This document shows positions 56,253 through 64,000 of a stretch of 64,000 bases of DNA, in pieces; positions within the stretch are counted from its first letter, which is position 1; every line of letters begins with the position of its first letter. This DNA is from Candidatus Polarisedimenticolaceae bacterium. GTDB lineage: Bacteria > Acidobacteriota > Polarisedimenticolia > Polarisedimenticolales > DASRJG01. Under the pieces are notes generated by a model. It did no database searches. It saw only the letters and a list, made by a program, of their open reading frames with translations, and was not told the origin of the DNA. The stretch lies in assembly GCA_036275915.1 (NCBI GenBank), contig DASUCV010000011.1:1-64000 (forward strand), in the 5' to 3' direction. Both the position numbers and the translations under genes were made by a program.

Positions 56253-56327
56253 GGCGCGGGGGCCGAACGTCCGTTGCAGCCAATGAACCCAATGCGCCGA
56301 ACGTTCCCCAATGCTGTTCAAAGCAAG

Positions 56328-58751
56328 ATGCATATGGAAATAATGACATTGTACATATTCGTCACTGGAGGCCTTTTTTCCATGGCGGCCGAAACGCCCT
56401 GCGCGCAGCTGCACGGCGATGACCGCGGCTGGTGCCTCTACCGCGCGGGTGACTTCCAGGACGCTGCCGAGGCGTTCGGTTCCGATCCCCTCTCCGTCGG
56501 CGGCGCGTACGCCGCCCTCCAGCTCGGCCAGGTCGAAGCCGCACGCGCGCGGTTCCGCGGGATCCTGAAGCTCCATCCGGACGAGAAGGACGCGCGGCAC
56601 GGTCTGGCCCTCGCCGCGCTGCGCGAGCCGGTCGAAGAGCTGCGATTCGAGCGCGACGCCGACCCGGCGAGGCCGATCGCGGTCCCTGCGCGCGCGCTCA
56701 AGGACGTCTTCGAGGTTCGTACCTCGTCCGGCGCGTACGAGCCGATCTTCATCAAGGGGGTCAATCTCGGCGCCGCGCTCCCCGGGAAGTACCCCACCGA
56801 GTTCCCTCGCGATCTCTCGCTCTATCTCAAGTGGTTCGACACGATCGCCGAGCTCGGCGGCAACGTGGTCCGCGTCTACACGCTCATGCCGCCGGAGTTC
56901 TACAGCGCGCTCTCGACGCACAACGCGCTCGCGGGCGCGCGGAGGCTCTGGCTCGTGCAGGGAATCTGGGCCGAGCTTCCCGACGACGGGAACTTCGACG
57001 ATCCGGACTTCCTCGCGGAGTTCCGCGCCGAGATCGACCGGGTCATCGACGCGGTCCATGGCGATCTCGTCTCGCCGCCGCGGCCGGGGCACGCCGGCGG
57101 CATCTACGAGACCGATGCGTCGTCGTCCCTCCTCGCGCTCATCCTCGGGCGCGAGTGGGAGCCGTACGCCGTCAAGGCATTCGATGCCGGGAAGCCGCCG
57201 GCGTCGTTCGCGGGGACGTACTTTCGCGCCTACAAAGTTCCGGCGATGGAAGTGTGGGCGGCCGGCATCTGTGAGGCTGCCGCCGCGCGCGAGGTCAAGC
57301 GCTACCGCACGCTCCATCCGCTCGCCTTCGCGAACTGGCCGACGCTCGATCCGCTGCGTCACGACACCGACGCCGATCGCGCGGAAGAAGACGCGTGGAA
57401 GAAGAGGTACGGCGTCCCGTTCCCCGAGGCCTACCGCGATGCGCCGTGGGAGAACGACGCCGTCTCGCTCGATGCCACGAAGATCGTCCCCACCGCGAAG
57501 ATGCCGGCCGGCTTCTTCGCGGCTTATCACATCTACCCGAACTATCCGGACTTCCTGAACCTCGAGCCGGCGTATGCGCGCGGTCCGAACCGGTACTCCG
57601 CGTACCTCGCCGATCTGAAGCGTTACCACGGCCATCAGCCGCTCCTCGTCGCCGAGCTCGGGATCTCGACGAGCCGCGGCGTGGCGCACGTGCAGCCGGA
57701 AGGTTGGGACCACGGCGGCCAGGACGAGAGGCGCCAGGGCGAGCTGCTCGGGACGATGTTCTCGGCCCTCCACGAGAACGGCTACGCGGGCGGCATCGTC
57801 TTCGAGCTGATCGACGAGTGGTTCAAGGGGACGTGGTCGGTCGCGCCTCTCACGATCCCCGCCGAGAGAAGGCGGCTGTGGTTCAACGCGGAGAGCCCCG
57901 AGCAGTCGTACGGCCTTCTCGCGTACCGGCCGGCGGAGCCGATCCGCGTCGACGGCGACCCGTCCGACTGGCTCGGACCCGCCTACCTCACGGCAAAGAA
58001 CGCGAACGCTTCCGGATGGGGAACGATCAAGGAGACGCGCGTGACCTCCGACGAGGGGTACGTCTACCTGCTCCTCCGCACCGCGGGCGGCCCGAAGCCG
58101 CCGGACTGGACGACGACCTCGTTCCACGTCGCGATCGACACTTACGACCCGGGGCGCGGCGCGACCCACGTCCCCGAGCCGATCGCAACGGGCGCCGAGT
58201 TCCTGATCGAGCTCCACGGCCCCGGCGCGAGCTTCGTCACCGTTGCGGCGCCGTACGAGCCTTACCAGGCGATCGAGAGCGGCCCGGTCGCATCGCCCGA
58301 GGCAGGGGACGACATCACCTTCACGCACCTCCTCATGGAGACCAACCGCGAGCGTTTCGGCCGCGACGGCACGCGCTACCCCGCGATCGTCGTCGATCGC
58401 GGCGCCCTGCGGTTCGGCTCCGTGGCGACCGACACGCGCACCGACGTCGCGGTCGGCGCGGCCTCGGGAGCGATCGAGCTTCGCATCCCGTGGCAGCTCC
58501 TGAACGTCACCGATCCCTCGTCGCGGCGCGTCCTCCACCAGACGACCGAGCACGACGCCCCTCTCGACACGGTCGTCACCGACGGCTTCCGCTTCTACGC
58601 TTTCGCCGACAAGTCGAGACTGCCCGCCGAAGGCGTCAAGGCTCCGCTCTACACGTGGCCGACGTGGGACGTGCCCAAGTATCGAACGCGCCGGAAGGCC
58701 GGTCTCGACGCGCTCCGCGAGGCGTGGAAGGCGATTCCCGATGCGCGCTAG
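56328..58751 (+). CDS. Exported glycoside-hydrolase-like TIM-barrel protein
   Basis: First gene of the polysaccharide operon, about 807 residues. After a likely signal peptide (MTLYIFVTGGLFSMA) comes a short TPR-like region, then a glycosidase-like barrel: FIKGVNLGAALPG, GGNVVRVYTLMPPEFY, AYHIYPNYPDF, LLVAELGISTSRG and VFELIDEWFKGTW, with Glu residues where clan-A glycosidases keep their acid and nucleophile. A C-terminal beta-rich part (from VDGDPSDWLG, about 545) resembles a carbohydrate-binding CBM9-like domain. The start is uncertain: ATG 56328, 56334 and 56343 keep the signal peptide, while ATG 56382 has GGAGG but no signal. A role in trimming or releasing the polymer made by the GT2 gene is inferred. 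Confidence 0.75.
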   Translation: MHMEIMTLYIFVTGGLFSMAAETPCAQLHGDDRGWCLYRAGDFQDAAEAFGSDPLSVGGAYAALQLGQVEAARARFRGILKLHPDEKDARHGLALAALREPVEELRFERDADPARPIAVPARALKDVFEVRTSSGAYEPIFIKGVNLGAALPGKYPTEFPRDLSLYLKWFDTIAELGGNVVRVYTLMPPEFYSALSTHNALAGARRLWLVQGIWAELPDDGNFDDPDFLAEFRAEIDRVIDAVHGDLVSPPRPGHAGGIYETDASSSLLALILGREWEPYAVKAFDAGKPPASFAGTYFRAYKVPAMEVWAAGICEAAAAREVKRYRTLHPLAFANWPTLDPLRHDTDADRAEEDAWKKRYGVPFPEAYRDAPWENDAVSLDATKIVPTAKMPAGFFAAYHIYPNYPDFLNLEPAYARGPNRYSAYLADLKRYHGHQPLLVAELGISTSRGVAHVQPEGWDHGGQDERRQGELLGTMFSALHENGYAGGIVFELIDEWFKGTWSVAPLTIPAERRRLWFNAESPEQSYGLLAYRPAEPIRVDGDPSDWLGPAYLTAKNANASGWGTIKETRVTSDEGYVYLLLRTAGGPKPPDWTTTSFHVAIDTYDPGRGATHVPEPIATGAEFLIELHGPGASFVTVAAPYEPYQAIESGPVASPEAGDDITFTHLLMETNRERFGRDGTRYPAIVVDRGALRFGSVATDTRTDVAVGAASGAIELRIPWQLLNVTDPSSRRVLHQTTEHDAPLDTVVTDGFRFYAFADKSRLPAEGVKAPLYTWPTWDVPKYRTRRKAGLDALREAWKAIPDAR

Positions 58752-60240
58752 CGCCCTGCTCCTCGCCCTCTTCCTCGCGACGACGGCGCGCGCGGACATC
58801 GCCTCGGCCGACGCGGCGTTCGACGACGACGATCACGTCCAGGCGCTGAAGCTCTACGACGAGGTCCTCGCGGAGGATCCGTCGAACGTCCATGCGCTCC
58901 TGCGCTCGGGGATGCTCCTCTCGTGGGACAAGAAGTACGACGACGCGCTCGCCCGCTACGAGCGCGCGCTCACCCGCGAGCCGAAGAACCCCGACGTCCT
59001 CCTCGAGCGCGGCAAGGTCTTCCTCTGGAGCAAGCGCTACGACGAGGCGATCGACAGCTACGCGAAAGTGCTCGAGCAGAGGCCCCACGACGCCTGGGCG
59101 CTTCTCGGCACGGCGCAGGCGTACGCGTGGCGCGGGCGCTCCGCTGAGGCGCGGCCGTTCTACGTGCGCGCGGTCGAGGCCGATCCGGACCTCAAGGATG
59201 CGCGGATCGGTCTCGCCTACGCCGATCTCGAGACGGGGAACGCTCCCGCGGCGCGCGAGGCCGCGGCGGCCCTCGCCGTGAAGTACCCCGACGATCCCGA
59301 GGTCAAAGCGTTGAACGAGGCGGCGAAGAAGTCGAGCGCCGCGTGGGTCCAGGTCGGCTACGAGCACCTCGACGACTCCGACGAGAACCGCATGAACGGG
59401 TACATCGCCGAAGGGGGCTTCGGCTTCGCCACGCGTTTCGACCTGCGCTTCGGCTACCGGCACGACGACTTCAACGGCCCGGTGCCGGGGAACGCCGATG
59501 CGAACGGCACCGCCGATCTTCTCTATGGCGTCCTCGGGTGGGACCCGCGCCCGCGGCAGAGGGGCGAGCTGCGCCTCGGCGCCGCGCGCCTCACCGATAG
59601 CGGGGGCAACGACCGCACGACCGCGATCGGCGGTCTCTCGTATTCGTTCCCCATCGGAACGTGGACCGGGCGTGCCGGGGCGGCGTACGACCCGTTCCTC
59701 TACTCGCCGCAGATCCTCGACAACGACATCGACGTCACCTCCGTGACCTTCTCCGCCGCGGGGCTTGCCAGCAAGCATGTCCAGGTCGAGGCCGGCGCTG
59801 GGTACGGCCACTTCTCCGACGGCAACACACGCTTGAACGCCGACGCCGGTGCCTGGTACGTCTGGACGTGGCCGGCGCGTCGCCTCCTCGCCGGCGGTGT
59901 CGTCCGCTACCTCGATTTCGCGGATGACCTGAACCACGGCTACTTCGATCCGTCGAACCTGGTCGCCGGCTTGGCCTCCGTCCGCTCGAACGGAACGATC
60001 GGCCGTTCCAGGTGGGAATACGAGACCACCGCGGAAGGCGGTGTGCAGCGCTACACCTTCAACGGCGCGACGAACACCGGAAAGCCGCTCTGGAACTTCT
60101 ACGGCCTCCTCGCGCATCCCCTCGGCCGCGGCTTCTCGTTCCAGCTCGACGCGAACTATGGCAACTCGTCGGCCGCGTCGGGCCCGGGCTTCAACTCGAT
60201 CTTCTTCGGCGCGGGGGTGCGCTACACCTTCGGAGGCTGA
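58741..60240 (+). CDS. TPR plus outer-membrane beta-barrel protein (PgaA/BcsC/YaiO-like)
   Basis: The 499-residue protein has a signal peptide (LLLALFLATTARA), about five TPR units in residues 20-200 (ALKLYDEVLAEDPSNVHAL, ALARYERALTREPKNPDVL, AIDSYAKVLEQRPHDAWAL) and a C-terminal beta-barrel (alternating strands from VQVGYEHLDD to GVRYTFGG). This TPR-barrel design is that of PgaA, BcsC and YaiO, the outer-membrane exporters of synthase-made polysaccharides. It overlaps the glycosidase-like gene by 11 bases. Confidence 0.85.
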   Translation: MRASALLLALFLATTARADIASADAAFDDDDHVQALKLYDEVLAEDPSNVHALLRSGMLLSWDKKYDDALARYERALTREPKNPDVLLERGKVFLWSKRYDEAIDSYAKVLEQRPHDAWALLGTAQAYAWRGRSAEARPFYVRAVEADPDLKDARIGLAYADLETGNAPAAREAAAALAVKYPDDPEVKALNEAAKKSSAAWVQVGYEHLDDSDENRMNGYIAEGGFGFATRFDLRFGYRHDDFNGPVPGNADANGTADLLYGVLGWDPRPRQRGELRLGAARLTDSGGNDRTTAIGGLSYSFPIGTWTGRAGAAYDPFLYSPQILDNDIDVTSVTFSAAGLASKHVQVEAGAGYGHFSDGNTRLNADAGAWYVWTWPARRLLAGGVVRYLDFADDLNHGYFDPSNLVAGLASVRSNGTIGRSRWEYETTAEGGVQRYTFNGATNTGKPLWNFYGLLAHPLGRGFSFQLDANYGNSSAASGPGFNSIFFGAGVRYTFGG

Positions 60241-60242
60241 GG

Positions 60243-60626
60243 GTGGGCCTCGCGAAGACGATCCTCGTGGCCGAGGACGATCCGGTGACCCGCCGGTTCG
60301 TCGTCTCGCTCCTCGAGGAGCGCGGCTACGAGGTCCTCGTCGCGGAAGACGGCGAGCACGCTCTCGAGCTGGCGAAGAGCGCCTCGCCCGATCTCCTCGT
60401 GAGCGATCTCGTCATGCCGTACCGCGACGGCTTCGAGGTCCTCCGCGCGATCCGGAATGACGCGAAGATCGCGCACCTGCCCGTTCTCATCCTCTCCATG
60501 CGCGACCACGAGGACGACATCGTCCGCGGCCTCGAGTCGGGGGCCGACGAGTACGTCGTCAAGCCGTTCAACGCGCGCGAGCTGGTGGCGCGCGTCAAGA
60601 AGCTCCTCGAACCGAGGCGGGCCTGA
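60243..60626 (+). CDS. Stand-alone receiver domain protein (CheY-like)
   Basis: Single response-regulator receiver of 127 residues with no output domain. It has the acidic pair AEDD near residue 10, phosphoacceptor Asp55 (LLVSDLVMP), LSMRD at the switch position and VVKPFN Lys. The GTG start lies two bases after the barrel gene stop, and its TGA overlaps the HEAT gene ATG. In this operon it may switch polymer synthesis by binding a partner rather than DNA. Confidence 0.85.
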   Translation: MGLAKTILVAEDDPVTRRFVVSLLEERGYEVLVAEDGEHALELAKSASPDLLVSDLVMPYRDGFEVLRAIRNDAKIAHLPVLILSMRDHEDDIVRGLESGADEYVVKPFNARELVARVKKLLEPRRA

Positions 60627-61876
60627 TGTTCCAGGTCCTCGTCGCGGCGATCATCGCGACCGCGGGGGTCTTCCTCGCGCTCACGCTCTTCATCGTGTCG
60701 GGAAAGGCCGTGCGCGAAATCCGCGATGCGCGCCGGCGATCGCGACGGAACGCGCTCGAGCCCTCGATCCTTCGTTATGTCCACGGAGAAGATCCTTCGA
60801 TCCTCGCCGCGCTCCGGGGCGGTCTCGCGCGCAGCGACCGACCGGTCGTGGAGACGATCCTGCTCGACCACGTCCAGCGGGTGCGCGGGGTCGAGCGCGA
60901 GCGCCTCGCGCGAGGGCTCGACGAGCTGGGCTACGTGGACGCGTACATGGACGCGCTCGGGAGCACACGCTGGTGGACGCGCGCTCATGCGGCGGAGAAC
61001 CTCGGCCTCGCCGGCGCCAAGCGGGCGACGTCGAAGCTCGTTTCCGCGCTCGGCGACGACGTCGCCGAGGTCCGGCTCCGCGCGGCGAAATCGCTCGGCC
61101 TCGTCGGCGGCCGCGCCGCGGTGCGCCCGCTCCTTCAAGCGCTCGGCGAGCCGAACCGCTGGTCGACGATCCGCATCGCCGACATCCTGAGCGACATGGG
61201 AAGGGAAGTCGTCCACGAGCTGATGGAGGCGTACCCGGAGCTGAACCGCCACGGCCGGCTCGCAGCGCTCGACATCGTCGGCCGCGTCCACGCGCTCGAA
61301 ACGATCGGCTGGCTGCTCGCGCGTCTCGACGACGACGATGCCGACATCCGAGCGCGCGCCGCGCATGCGCTCGGCGCGATCGGCGTGCTCGAAGGCGCGC
61401 CGAGACTCAGAAGCGCACTCGCCGATCCCGCGTGGCCGGTGCGTGCGATGGCCGCGAAGGCGCTCGGCCGCATCCACGACGCGGAAGCGATCCCCGAATT
61501 GTGCGCGACCCTTCGCGACCGCGAGTGGTGGGTGCGCGCCAACGCCGCGGAAGCGCTCAAGCAAGCCGGGCCGATGGGAATCGAAGCGCTGGAAGGCATG
61601 CTCGCCGACGAGGATCTCTACGCGCGCCACCAGGCGTGCGTCGTCCTCGAAGCCGCGGGCATCCTCGAGCGAAGGGTCGCGCAGCTCGGGTCGACCGGCA
61701 CGGTCAGGGACAGCGCCGAGCGTGTCATCCAACGCTTCGTCGCGGCGGGTCAAACCGGCCGCCTGCGCGAGCTGGCGGTGACCCACGGCGATCCCGGCGT
61801 GAGGAACGCCCTCGCGCGCCTCCTCCCGCTGGACAACGCTCCGATGGAGAGAGACCGGGAGGAGGTGCAGCGATGA
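60626..61876 (+). CDS. Membrane-anchored HEAT-repeat protein
   Basis: The 416-residue protein has one N-terminal membrane helix (VAAIIATAGVFLALTLFIVSG) and cytoplasmic HEAT/PBS-lyase-type repeats from residue ~110 to 370 (RAHAAENLGLAGAKRATSKLVSAL, LRAAKSLGLVGGRAAVRPLLQAL, IRARAAHALGAIGVLEGAPRL, RAMAAKALGRIHDAEAI). Such repeats bind proteins. Its place between the receiver and the synthase suggests a scaffold that passes the receiver signal to the synthase. It overlaps both neighbours. Confidence 0.85.
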   Translation: MFQVLVAAIIATAGVFLALTLFIVSGKAVREIRDARRRSRRNALEPSILRYVHGEDPSILAALRGGLARSDRPVVETILLDHVQRVRGVERERLARGLDELGYVDAYMDALGSTRWWTRAHAAENLGLAGAKRATSKLVSALGDDVAEVRLRAAKSLGLVGGRAAVRPLLQALGEPNRWSTIRIADILSDMGREVVHELMEAYPELNRHGRLAALDIVGRVHALETIGWLLARLDDDDADIRARAAHALGAIGVLEGAPRLRSALADPAWPVRAMAAKALGRIHDAEAIPELCATLRDREWWVRANAAEALKQAGPMGIEALEGMLADEDLYARHQACVVLEAAGILERRVAQLGSTGTVRDSAERVIQRFVAAGQTGRLRELAVTHGDPGVRNALARLLPLDNAPMERDREEVQR

Positions 61877-63303
61877 CCTTCACCGGCTTCCTCGCTCAGG
61901 CGCTCCTGTACTTCAACATCTTTGTCTTGATCTACTTCCTCGCATTGAACTCGATCTACCTCATCCTCTTCGTGATCTCGCTCTTCGAAGTTCTGAGGTT
62001 CGTGCGACGGACCTTCTTCTCCGACTACCGCCAGATCATGCAGTCCGACATGACGTGGCCGATCTCGGTCCTCATCCCCGCGCACGACGAGGAGAAGACG
62101 ATCGTCGAGACCGTGCGCTCGATGCTCATGGTCAACTACGGCGAGTTCGAGATCGTCGTCATCAACGACGGCTCGAACGACAAGACGCTCGCTCGCCTCG
62201 TCGAAGCGTACGAGCTGCGCCGCACCGACCAGCCGTACCGCCGCGTGATCCCGACGCAGCAGGTCCGGGCGGTCTACCGCTCGCTCGCGCACCCCAACCT
62301 CGTCGTCGTCGACAAGGAGAAGGGCGGCAAGTCCGACGCGCTCAACGCCGGCATCAACCTCGCGCGCTACCCGCTCTTCTGCTCGATCGACGCCGACTCC
62401 GTCATCGAGGACAACGCGCTCCTCCGCGTCGTGAAGCCGTTCATGGAGAAGCCGCACGAGACCGTCGCCGCCGGCGGCATCGTCCGCATCGTCAACGGCT
62501 GTGAGGTCAAGGAAGGCCGCGTCACCCGCATCGCTCTTCCCGACCGCGCGATCCCGATCTTCCAGGTCGTCGAGTATCTCCGCGCTTTCCTCACGGGCCG
62601 CGTCGGCTGGTCGAACCTCCAGTCGCTCCTCATCATCTCGGGCGCGTTCGGCATCTACAAGAAGCAGGAGGTCGTCGAGATCGGCGGCTACACGCACGAC
62701 ACCGACACCGAAGACCTCGAGCTCGTCGTGCGCCTGCACGAGCACATGCGCCGCAAGAAGCAGCCCTACCGCGTCGTCTTCGTGCCCGATCCCGTCTGCT
62801 GGACCGAATCGCCCGAGTCGCTCCGCGTGCTCGCGCGCCAGCGCAACCGCTGGCACCGCGGCCTCCTCCAAACGATCTGGATCCACAAGCGCATGTTCCT
62901 GAACCCGCGCTACGGCACCGTCGGCATGTTCGCCTTCCCGTACTTCGCCATTTTCGAGCTGCTCGGTCCGTTCATCGAGACGTTCGGCTACATCGCCGTC
63001 ATCTTCTCTTACCTGCTCGGCATCCTCGACGTGCAGTACTTCCTACTCTTCCTCGCGGTCTCGGTGCTCTACGGCGTCTTCCTCTCGATCGCCGCGGTGC
63101 TTCTCGAGGAGATCTCGTTCCGCCGCTACCCCGGTTGGACCGATCTCGCCAAGCTCGTCGCCTACAGCGTCCTCGAGAACCTCGGCTACCGGCAGCTCCT
63201 CTCCGCGATCAAGGTCAAGGCGTTCTGGGACGCGATCCGCAGACGTCGAGCGTGGGGGAAGATGCAGCGGAAGGGGTTCCAGCCGGCGAGGGTGGAGAGC
63301 TAG
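61873..63303 (+). CDS. Processive GT2 membrane glycosyltransferase (polysaccharide synthase)
   Basis: The 476-residue synthase has N-terminal membrane helices (residues ~5-40), a catalytic domain with VINDGSNDKT, SIDADS (the D-x-D metal site), DTDTEDLEL (TED catalytic base) and QRNRWHRG (Q-x-x-R-W), then several C-terminal helices (AFPYFAIFELLGPFIETFGYIAVIF onward). These are the signatures of processive synthases like PgaC, BcsA and HasA. There is no C-terminal PilZ domain, so direct c-di-GMP control as in BcsA is not seen. It is the last gene of the operon. The polymer sugar is unknown. Confidence 0.9.
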   Translation: MTFTGFLAQALLYFNIFVLIYFLALNSIYLILFVISLFEVLRFVRRTFFSDYRQIMQSDMTWPISVLIPAHDEEKTIVETVRSMLMVNYGEFEIVVINDGSNDKTLARLVEAYELRRTDQPYRRVIPTQQVRAVYRSLAHPNLVVVDKEKGGKSDALNAGINLARYPLFCSIDADSVIEDNALLRVVKPFMEKPHETVAAGGIVRIVNGCEVKEGRVTRIALPDRAIPIFQVVEYLRAFLTGRVGWSNLQSLLIISGAFGIYKKQEVVEIGGYTHDTDTEDLELVVRLHEHMRRKKQPYRVVFVPDPVCWTESPESLRVLARQRNRWHRGLLQTIWIHKRMFLNPRYGTVGMFAFPYFAIFELLGPFIETFGYIAVIFSYLLGILDVQYFLLFLAVSVLYGVFLSIAAVLLEEISFRRYPGWTDLAKLVAYSVLENLGYRQLLSAIKVKAFWDAIRRRRAWGKMQRKGFQPARVES

Positions 63304-63726: not shown

Positions 63727-64000
63727 CTAAGTCGGCAAGATCTCATTGCGCTTACGCGGCAGCGCGCCAGTGTGCCACGCCAGCTCGATCGCCGAGTCGA
63801 GCCACTCGAGTCGCTGTGCGGGGCTCGCGGCCAAACCGCGGATGAGCTGGTCCTTCCGGTGCGCTTCCCAGCCGCCACCGTACGACTCGGACACCGCACC
63901 TCTTTGATTCTTGGCGATGATCTCGAGTGCGTCGATGTCCAGCAGATCTTGCGGACGACCTGCGGCTCGCTTCATTCGGATGAGGTGAGGAATGGAGGCG
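63727..64000 (-). CDS. C-terminal part of a nucleotidyltransferase-like protein fused to a GWEAHR-type tail (partial)
   Basis: The frame runs past the right edge of the window. The visible part starts IPHLIRMKRAAGRPQDLLDIDALE, a typical ending of AbiEii/MNT-like nucleotidyltransferase or toxin-related proteins. The same frame goes on into SYGGGWEAHRKDQLIRGLAASPAQRLEWLDSAIELA, which I know mostly as a separate small protein that follows such genes. A GTG with AGAGGTG before it lies at the junction, so a second start within the fused frame is possible. A toxin-antitoxin type role is only suggested. Confidence 0.55.
   Translation of the reverse strand, partial: ASIPHLIRMKRAAGRPQDLLDIDALEIIAKNQRGAVSESYGGGWEAHRKDQLIRGLAASPAQRLEWLDSAIELAWHTGALPRKRNEILPT

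Follow-up and report, generated by a model that had tools for sequence, protein, structure and literature searches.

The 64,000 nucleotides of contig DASUCV010000011.1 (GCA_036275915.1, positions 1 to 64,000 of the forward strand; Candidatus Polarisedimenticolaceae bacterium), referred to here as the window, contain an operon of five genes for a glycosidase-like protein, an outer-membrane exporter, a stand-alone response-regulator receiver, a HEAT-repeat protein and a family 2 glycosyltransferase (GT2). The locus raises the question of whether these proteins form a polysaccharide secretion system other than those already described and, if so, how such a system would be controlled. Our interpretation, to which we give a probability of roughly 0.6, is that the operon encodes a synthase-dependent exopolysaccharide system in which the HEAT-repeat protein is a co-subunit of the synthase and the receiver a phosphorylation-dependent switch, and that it belongs to a family without a description in the literature searched. 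No account of a HEAT/GT2/receiver polysaccharide system was found in the open-access literature searched, with most subscription journals outside that scope; a first-pass annotation of this DNA had likewise known of no described system with this set.

The evidence that carries this interpretation is the constancy of the gene content in relatives. At least 80 loci of the GT2 family were found when 84,980 species genomes were scanned, and those listed, with loci of relatives and of plasmids, make up a set of 119. Judged from record titles, with plasmid records counted, the family extends over about 17 phyla, including haloarchaea, among the matches listed; one scan record carries the label Klebsiella, probably through a binning error. 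Cultured carriers include Flavobacterium, Stutzerimonas, Paenibacillus, Deinococcus, and Geothrix. The HEAT gene is directly upstream of the GT2 gene in 113 of the 119 loci, typically overlapping it or within a few tens of bases of it, and its density is 0.224 per kb just upstream of GT2 but falls to 0.001 per kb in the rest of the same loci; no HEAT genes were found in 12 control loci carrying other synthases. The six loci that depart from this arrangement are three at contig ends (L115, L137, and L152), L143, which has a HEAT-GT2 fusion whose HEAT part falls under the profile threshold, L066, in which a HEAT protein of 1212 residues is placed after GT2, and L095, in which the HEAT gene is ∼6 kb from GT2. 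The two proteins are a single chain in L120, L135, and L143, from a Sphaerochaeta and two Bacillota. An N-terminal membrane helix is present in 46 of 48 HEAT proteins and is followed, on average, by a basic stretch, because of which the repeats are predicted by the positive-inside rule to be cytoplasmic. The GT2 synthase has in the HEAT protein a near-obligate partner, and the five-gene set is not chance clustering, its gene content being kept in relatives far beyond chance. The co-occurrence that the first-pass annotation had wanted checked is therefore found, and orthologs are not scattered through other genomes; of its description of the HEAT protein as a scaffold, the gene arrangements show the partnership with the synthase, and the scaffolding role itself is conjectural.

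The window GT2 has the D, DxD, (T)ED, and QxxRW motifs and the flanking membrane helices of a membrane-embedded processive GT2, and D99, D173xD175, E280-D281, and the QxxRW sequence are invariant over 14 diverse members of the family, from Acidobacteriota to Bacillota and haloarchaea. Its best match in NCBIfam is PgaC_IcaA (TIGR03937), a model that is matched by all 14 of the members tried, and the barrel of the exporter resembles that of PgaA. These similarities, together with the glmS and nucleotidyltransferase genes that come after GT2 in a Halosolutus locus, would fit a divergent Pga-type poly-GlcNAc system in which PgaB and PgaD have been replaced, but the match to PgaC_IcaA is 121.6 bits against a cut-off of 422.3. 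A profile made from the family gives its members at least 416 bits, except for the diverged, HEAT-associated L070 at 291, whereas every other synthase tried reaches at most 203 and PgaC and IcaA at most 150. In a tree of the GT2 proteins, PgaC and IcaA pair with each other outside the family, and, with BcsA, YaiP, PssC, and the XrtG-linked and NodB-fused synthases, they cluster on a long branch away from it. NfrB is also outside, at the midpoint root and on a very long branch, its placement being unsure; the outgroup branches (NfrB and BcsA) are long enough to make their exact place uncertain, and the gap in profile scores was used alongside the tree. Same-phylum relatives of the window protein group with Geothrix and Terriglobia, which points to Acidobacteriota as the probable phylum of the genome. 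When it is added that the nearest structures to the glycosidase act on β-1,3-glucan and that a Legionella locus has genes for a nucleotide-sugar dehydrogenase and epimerases, replacement of components in a Pga system becomes a very improbable origin of the operon. With the cellulose synthase model TIGR03030 the window GT2 gives 41.9 bits (cut-off 699.1). Orthology with PgaC, BcsA, NfrB, YaiP, PssC, or the XrtG-linked GT2 is ruled out by the curated cut-offs, the tree, and the score gap; clear orthology with BcsA or PgaC is what the first-pass annotation had regarded as incompatible with its proposal. On these sequence comparisons, the GT2 is a group of its own, separate from the PgaC/IcaA, BcsA, NfrB, YaiP, PssC, and XrtG-linked synthases. 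Copy number varies within the group: a tandem pair of family GT2 genes, followed by a long TPR/barrel protein, is present at L142:8422-11464 and L146:9992-13038; in genome G006, a second, diverged family GT2 (∼40% identical) precedes the 1212-residue, almost all-HEAT protein (L066:5039-10201, minus strand); and genome G008 has a second family copy too.

The model of the exporter, based on 21 sequences (predicted local distance difference test score (pLDDT) 92), consists of a TPR stack and 16 β strands, and its N-terminal residues resemble a signal peptide. Its top matches among solved structures, in full or as barrels, are BcsC (Z 27.5), the barrel of PgaA (Z 26.2, 2.6 Å over 276 residues), and PelB (Z 25.4), and its predicted structure is that of a TPR/β-barrel outer-membrane exporter. 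The YaiO model TIGR04390 is matched by 25 of 38 exporter homologues, although it is not among the best 25 matches listed for the window protein. An exporter gene is near GT2 in 84 of 98 diderm loci and in none of the 21 loci from monoderms or archaea (Fisher P 2e-14, with loci that are non-independent and envelope types taken from organism names). The occurrence of the family in monoderms and archaea that have no barrel, the putative status of the GT2 product, and the fusion of a Bacteroidota GT2 to a lipoteichoic acid (LTA)-synthase-like sulfatase domain, a possible sign of envelope glycopolymers, would be compatible with a GT2 that makes a short glycan on lipid or protein, the barrel and glycosidase serving other substrates. 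However, the invariance of the processive-synthase motifs, QxxRW included, and the pairing of GT2 in diderm loci with an exporter of the BcsC/PgaA/PelB fold argue for a secreted polymer and leave the short-glycan alternative little likelihood.

No Pfam family covers the glycosidase, one homologue matching GH72 weakly, and a single-sequence search found no solved relative up to an E-value of 1. The first structure prediction used an alignment without three rows from plasmid records. The model (mean pLDDT 85) shows a TIM barrel of clan GH-A, similar in type to those of GH157, GH2, GH5, and GH72, and the nearest structure is that of the GH157 endo-β-1,3-glucanase LaGH157 (Z 33.6, 2.4 Å over 314 residues, 19% identity), although the window protein has additional N- and C-terminal parts and the GH157 profile matches it weakly (E-value 0.096). 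There are two candidate catalytic residues: Glu443, kept in 31 of 32 homologues, aligns with Glu224 of LaGH157, the residue that is mutated in the LaGH157 complex, and Glu276, kept in 30 of 32, is the likely acid/base. Among 100 relatives, the glycosidase is present in 19 of the 37 genomes with GT2 versus 1 of the 63 without, and it is near GT2 in 30 of the 119 loci. It is an accessory of the system, and its location may be periplasmic; a signal peptide is unclear in the sequence. In Paenibacillus (L032:1552-7943 and L079:3705-9945), two tandem glycosidase paralogues precede the HEAT and GT2 genes, and no exporter or receiver was found at these loci.

The receiver of the window has the acidic pair Asp12/Asp13, the phospho-acceptor Asp55, and Lys107 of a phosphorylatable receiver, and in aligned receivers the phospho-Asp is kept in 78 of 89 and the Lys in 82 of 89. 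A receiver gene on the same strand is near GT2 in 92 of the 119 loci, and at least 59 of 88 receivers are stand-alone proteins with no output domain. Hybrid kinases or Hpt proteins adjoin the operon in many relatives, Mesorhizobium, Kaistella, Stutzerimonas, and Flavobacterium among them. The receiver gene of some Bacillota, Actinomycetota, Myxococcota, and Spirochaetota encodes an Hpt-REC-GGDEF-REC or similar chain, in which the GGDEF motif is mostly degenerate by eye but is an intact GGEEF in L112. Such chains, and the activation of Bcs, Pga, and Nfr by cyclic di-GMP (c-di-GMP) (PMC8669469), would agree with a different account, in which the exopolysaccharide system is real but is driven by a nucleotide, c-di-GMP or another, that is sensed elsewhere, with the receiver only feeding such a pathway or acting on expression and the HEAT protein being an assembly factor. 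We consider this account unlikely: Pfam and NCBIfam detect no recognised c-di-GMP domain in the window operon proteins, most of the GGDEF motifs look degenerate by eye, and for the stand-alone receivers a transcriptional or cyclase role would call for a further partner. The first-pass annotation had proposed control by phosphorylation instead of c-di-GMP. In the window operon the phospho-acceptor set is kept and a c-di-GMP domain is not recognised, but several relatives have GGDEF fused to the receiver; the words “instead of c-di-GMP” hold for the window operon as domain absence only, and phospho-control in place of c-di-GMP is not established.

In the mechanism that we favor, a HEAT-linked synthase under a phospho-receiver, the GT2 would polymerise sugar at the inner membrane, and the HEAT protein, with its one-helix anchor and cytoplasmic repeats, would bind the synthase as a co-subunit, a role that may be likened to those of BcsB, PgaD, or Alg44 in their systems. 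A kinase whose gene is elsewhere in the genome would phosphorylate the receiver, which would bind or release the HEAT domain and so turn synthesis on or off; Rap-type TPR proteins that bind receivers are a precedent. The polymer would then leave through the TPR/16-strand barrel, to be trimmed or released outside the cytoplasm by the clan GH-A glycosidase. Several points weigh against this mechanism. The secreted polymer is putative; the contact between HEAT protein and GT2 is one that we infer from the adjacency of their genes and the three natural fusions; and that between receiver and HEAT protein is suggested by gene order and by the missing output domain of the stand-alone receivers. The direction of control by the receiver is also conjectural. 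No kinase gene is present in the examined part of the neighbourhood of the window operon, 27 of the 119 loci have no nearby receiver under the criteria used, so the receiver is not obligate, and the GGDEF-containing receivers of some lineages leave room for c-di-GMP. The broader proposal, that this is a widespread synthase family of one- and two-membrane bacteria and haloarchaea gated post-translationally by a phospho-receiver through a HEAT co-subunit, with no second messenger, is put forward tentatively and with some doubt.

The components of the operon are listed in the table. The five genes are in the order that the first-pass annotation gave, all on the plus strand and abutting or overlapping: glycosidase and exporter overlap by 11 bases, exporter and receiver are separated by a 2-base gap, and receiver/HEAT and HEAT/GT2 overlap by 1 and 4 bases, respectively. 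The start of the glycosidase gene is the least certain, with an in-frame TTG upstream at 56274.

Genes of the candidate exopolysaccharide operon in the window
Gene product	Position	Strand	Features
Clan GH-A glycosidase-like protein, 807 aa	56328-58751	+	N-terminal TPR-like stretch; TIM barrel with E276 and E443; C-terminal β domain
Outer-membrane exporter, 499 aa	58741-60240	+	Signal peptide; TPR stack; 16-stranded β barrel
Stand-alone response-regulator receiver, 127 aa	60243-60626	+	GTG start; D12/D13, D55, K107
HEAT-repeat protein, 416 aa	60626-61876	+	One N-terminal membrane helix (residues 6-24), then a basic stretch; repeats predicted cytoplasmic
Processive GT2 synthase, 476 aa	61873-63303	+	D99, D173xD175, E280-D281, QxxRW 323-327; membrane helices on both sides

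Searches of the five proteins against Pfam and NCBIfam identified Response_reg (E 4e-30), HEAT_2 (E 5e-31), and Glycos_transf_2 (E 4e-21), as well as TPR; domains of the PilZ, deacetylase, BcsB, or MshEN kind were reported in none of them. The first-pass annotation was thus correct in recognising the parts of a synthase-dependent secretion system (processive GT2, TPR/barrel exporter, and glycosidase fold) and in noting both the lack of PilZ and deacetylase and a gene set different from the usual Pga, Bcs, Alg, or Pel. Upstream, the opposite strand carries genes that look like topA and dprA, and the content downstream looks unrelated to the operon. A nucleotidyltransferase-like gene (221 aa) is on the other strand right after the operon (63727-64000, minus strand, and L038:9728-10393) and also looks unrelated.

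Among described systems, the closest by design is Nfr of Escherichia coli (NfrB-NfrA-YbcH; PMC8669469), which shares the minimal arrangement of a GT2, a TPR β-barrel exporter, and one extracytoplasmic accessory encoded by overlapping genes. NfrB, however, has a C-terminal c-di-GMP-binding MshEN domain, which the 476-residue window GT2 lacks, and the Nfr operon has neither the HEAT protein nor the receiver. The resemblance to PgaABCD consists of a GT2 distantly related to PgaC and the PgaA-like barrel, but the PgaB deacetylase and PgaD are missing, a HEAT protein and receiver are present, and the GT2 is far below the PgaC cut-off. The cellulose (Bcs) system likewise has a processive GT2, an exporter, BcsC, that the window protein matches, and an operon glycosidase, BcsZ; it differs in having PilZ and BcsB, in a glycosidase of another fold family, and in a synthase whose model the window GT2 matches poorly. 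In loci of the type of Listeria Pss and Bacillus YdaJKLMN, the GT2 is beside a GGDEF-containing regulator (L163), as in some of the GGDEF-bearing relatives of the window system, but these loci encode BcsB-like and DUF2334 proteins and lack a HEAT protein, and PssC is outside the window GT2 family.

The genes around GT2 in other lineages give some indications of the substrate. On an archaeal plasmid of Halosolutus (L034:7244-12568), which has receiver and HEAT genes, the sugar nucleotidyltransferase and glmS genes after GT2 hint at an amino-sugar polymer, whereas the dehydrogenase and epimerase genes flank GT2 in Legionella. In four Bacteroidota loci (L117:9959-13378, L123:9884-13312, L131:9953-13381, and L133:6063-9599), GT2 is within an open reading frame of 1139-1178 residues; in L117 its C-terminal portion is a sulfatase domain of the LTA-synthase-like kind, which suggests a phosphoglycerol-type modification, the other three being judged by length alone. 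These indications and the β-1,3-glucanase-like glycosidase point in different directions, and the substrates probably differ between lineages.

The best reading is that the system belongs with the synthase-dependent exopolysaccharide systems but not with Pga, Bcs, or Nfr. What is understood of synthase-dependent polymers comes largely from c-di-GMP and from a small number of systems. A HEAT and GT2 core that is shared, usually together with a receiver, by about 17 phyla, archaea among them, would represent an extensive, uncharacterised class of extracellular-polymer systems and, if the proposed mechanism is true, would provide direct two-component control of polymer synthesis and a testable case in which a receiver uses a helical-repeat adaptor to act on an enzyme complex.

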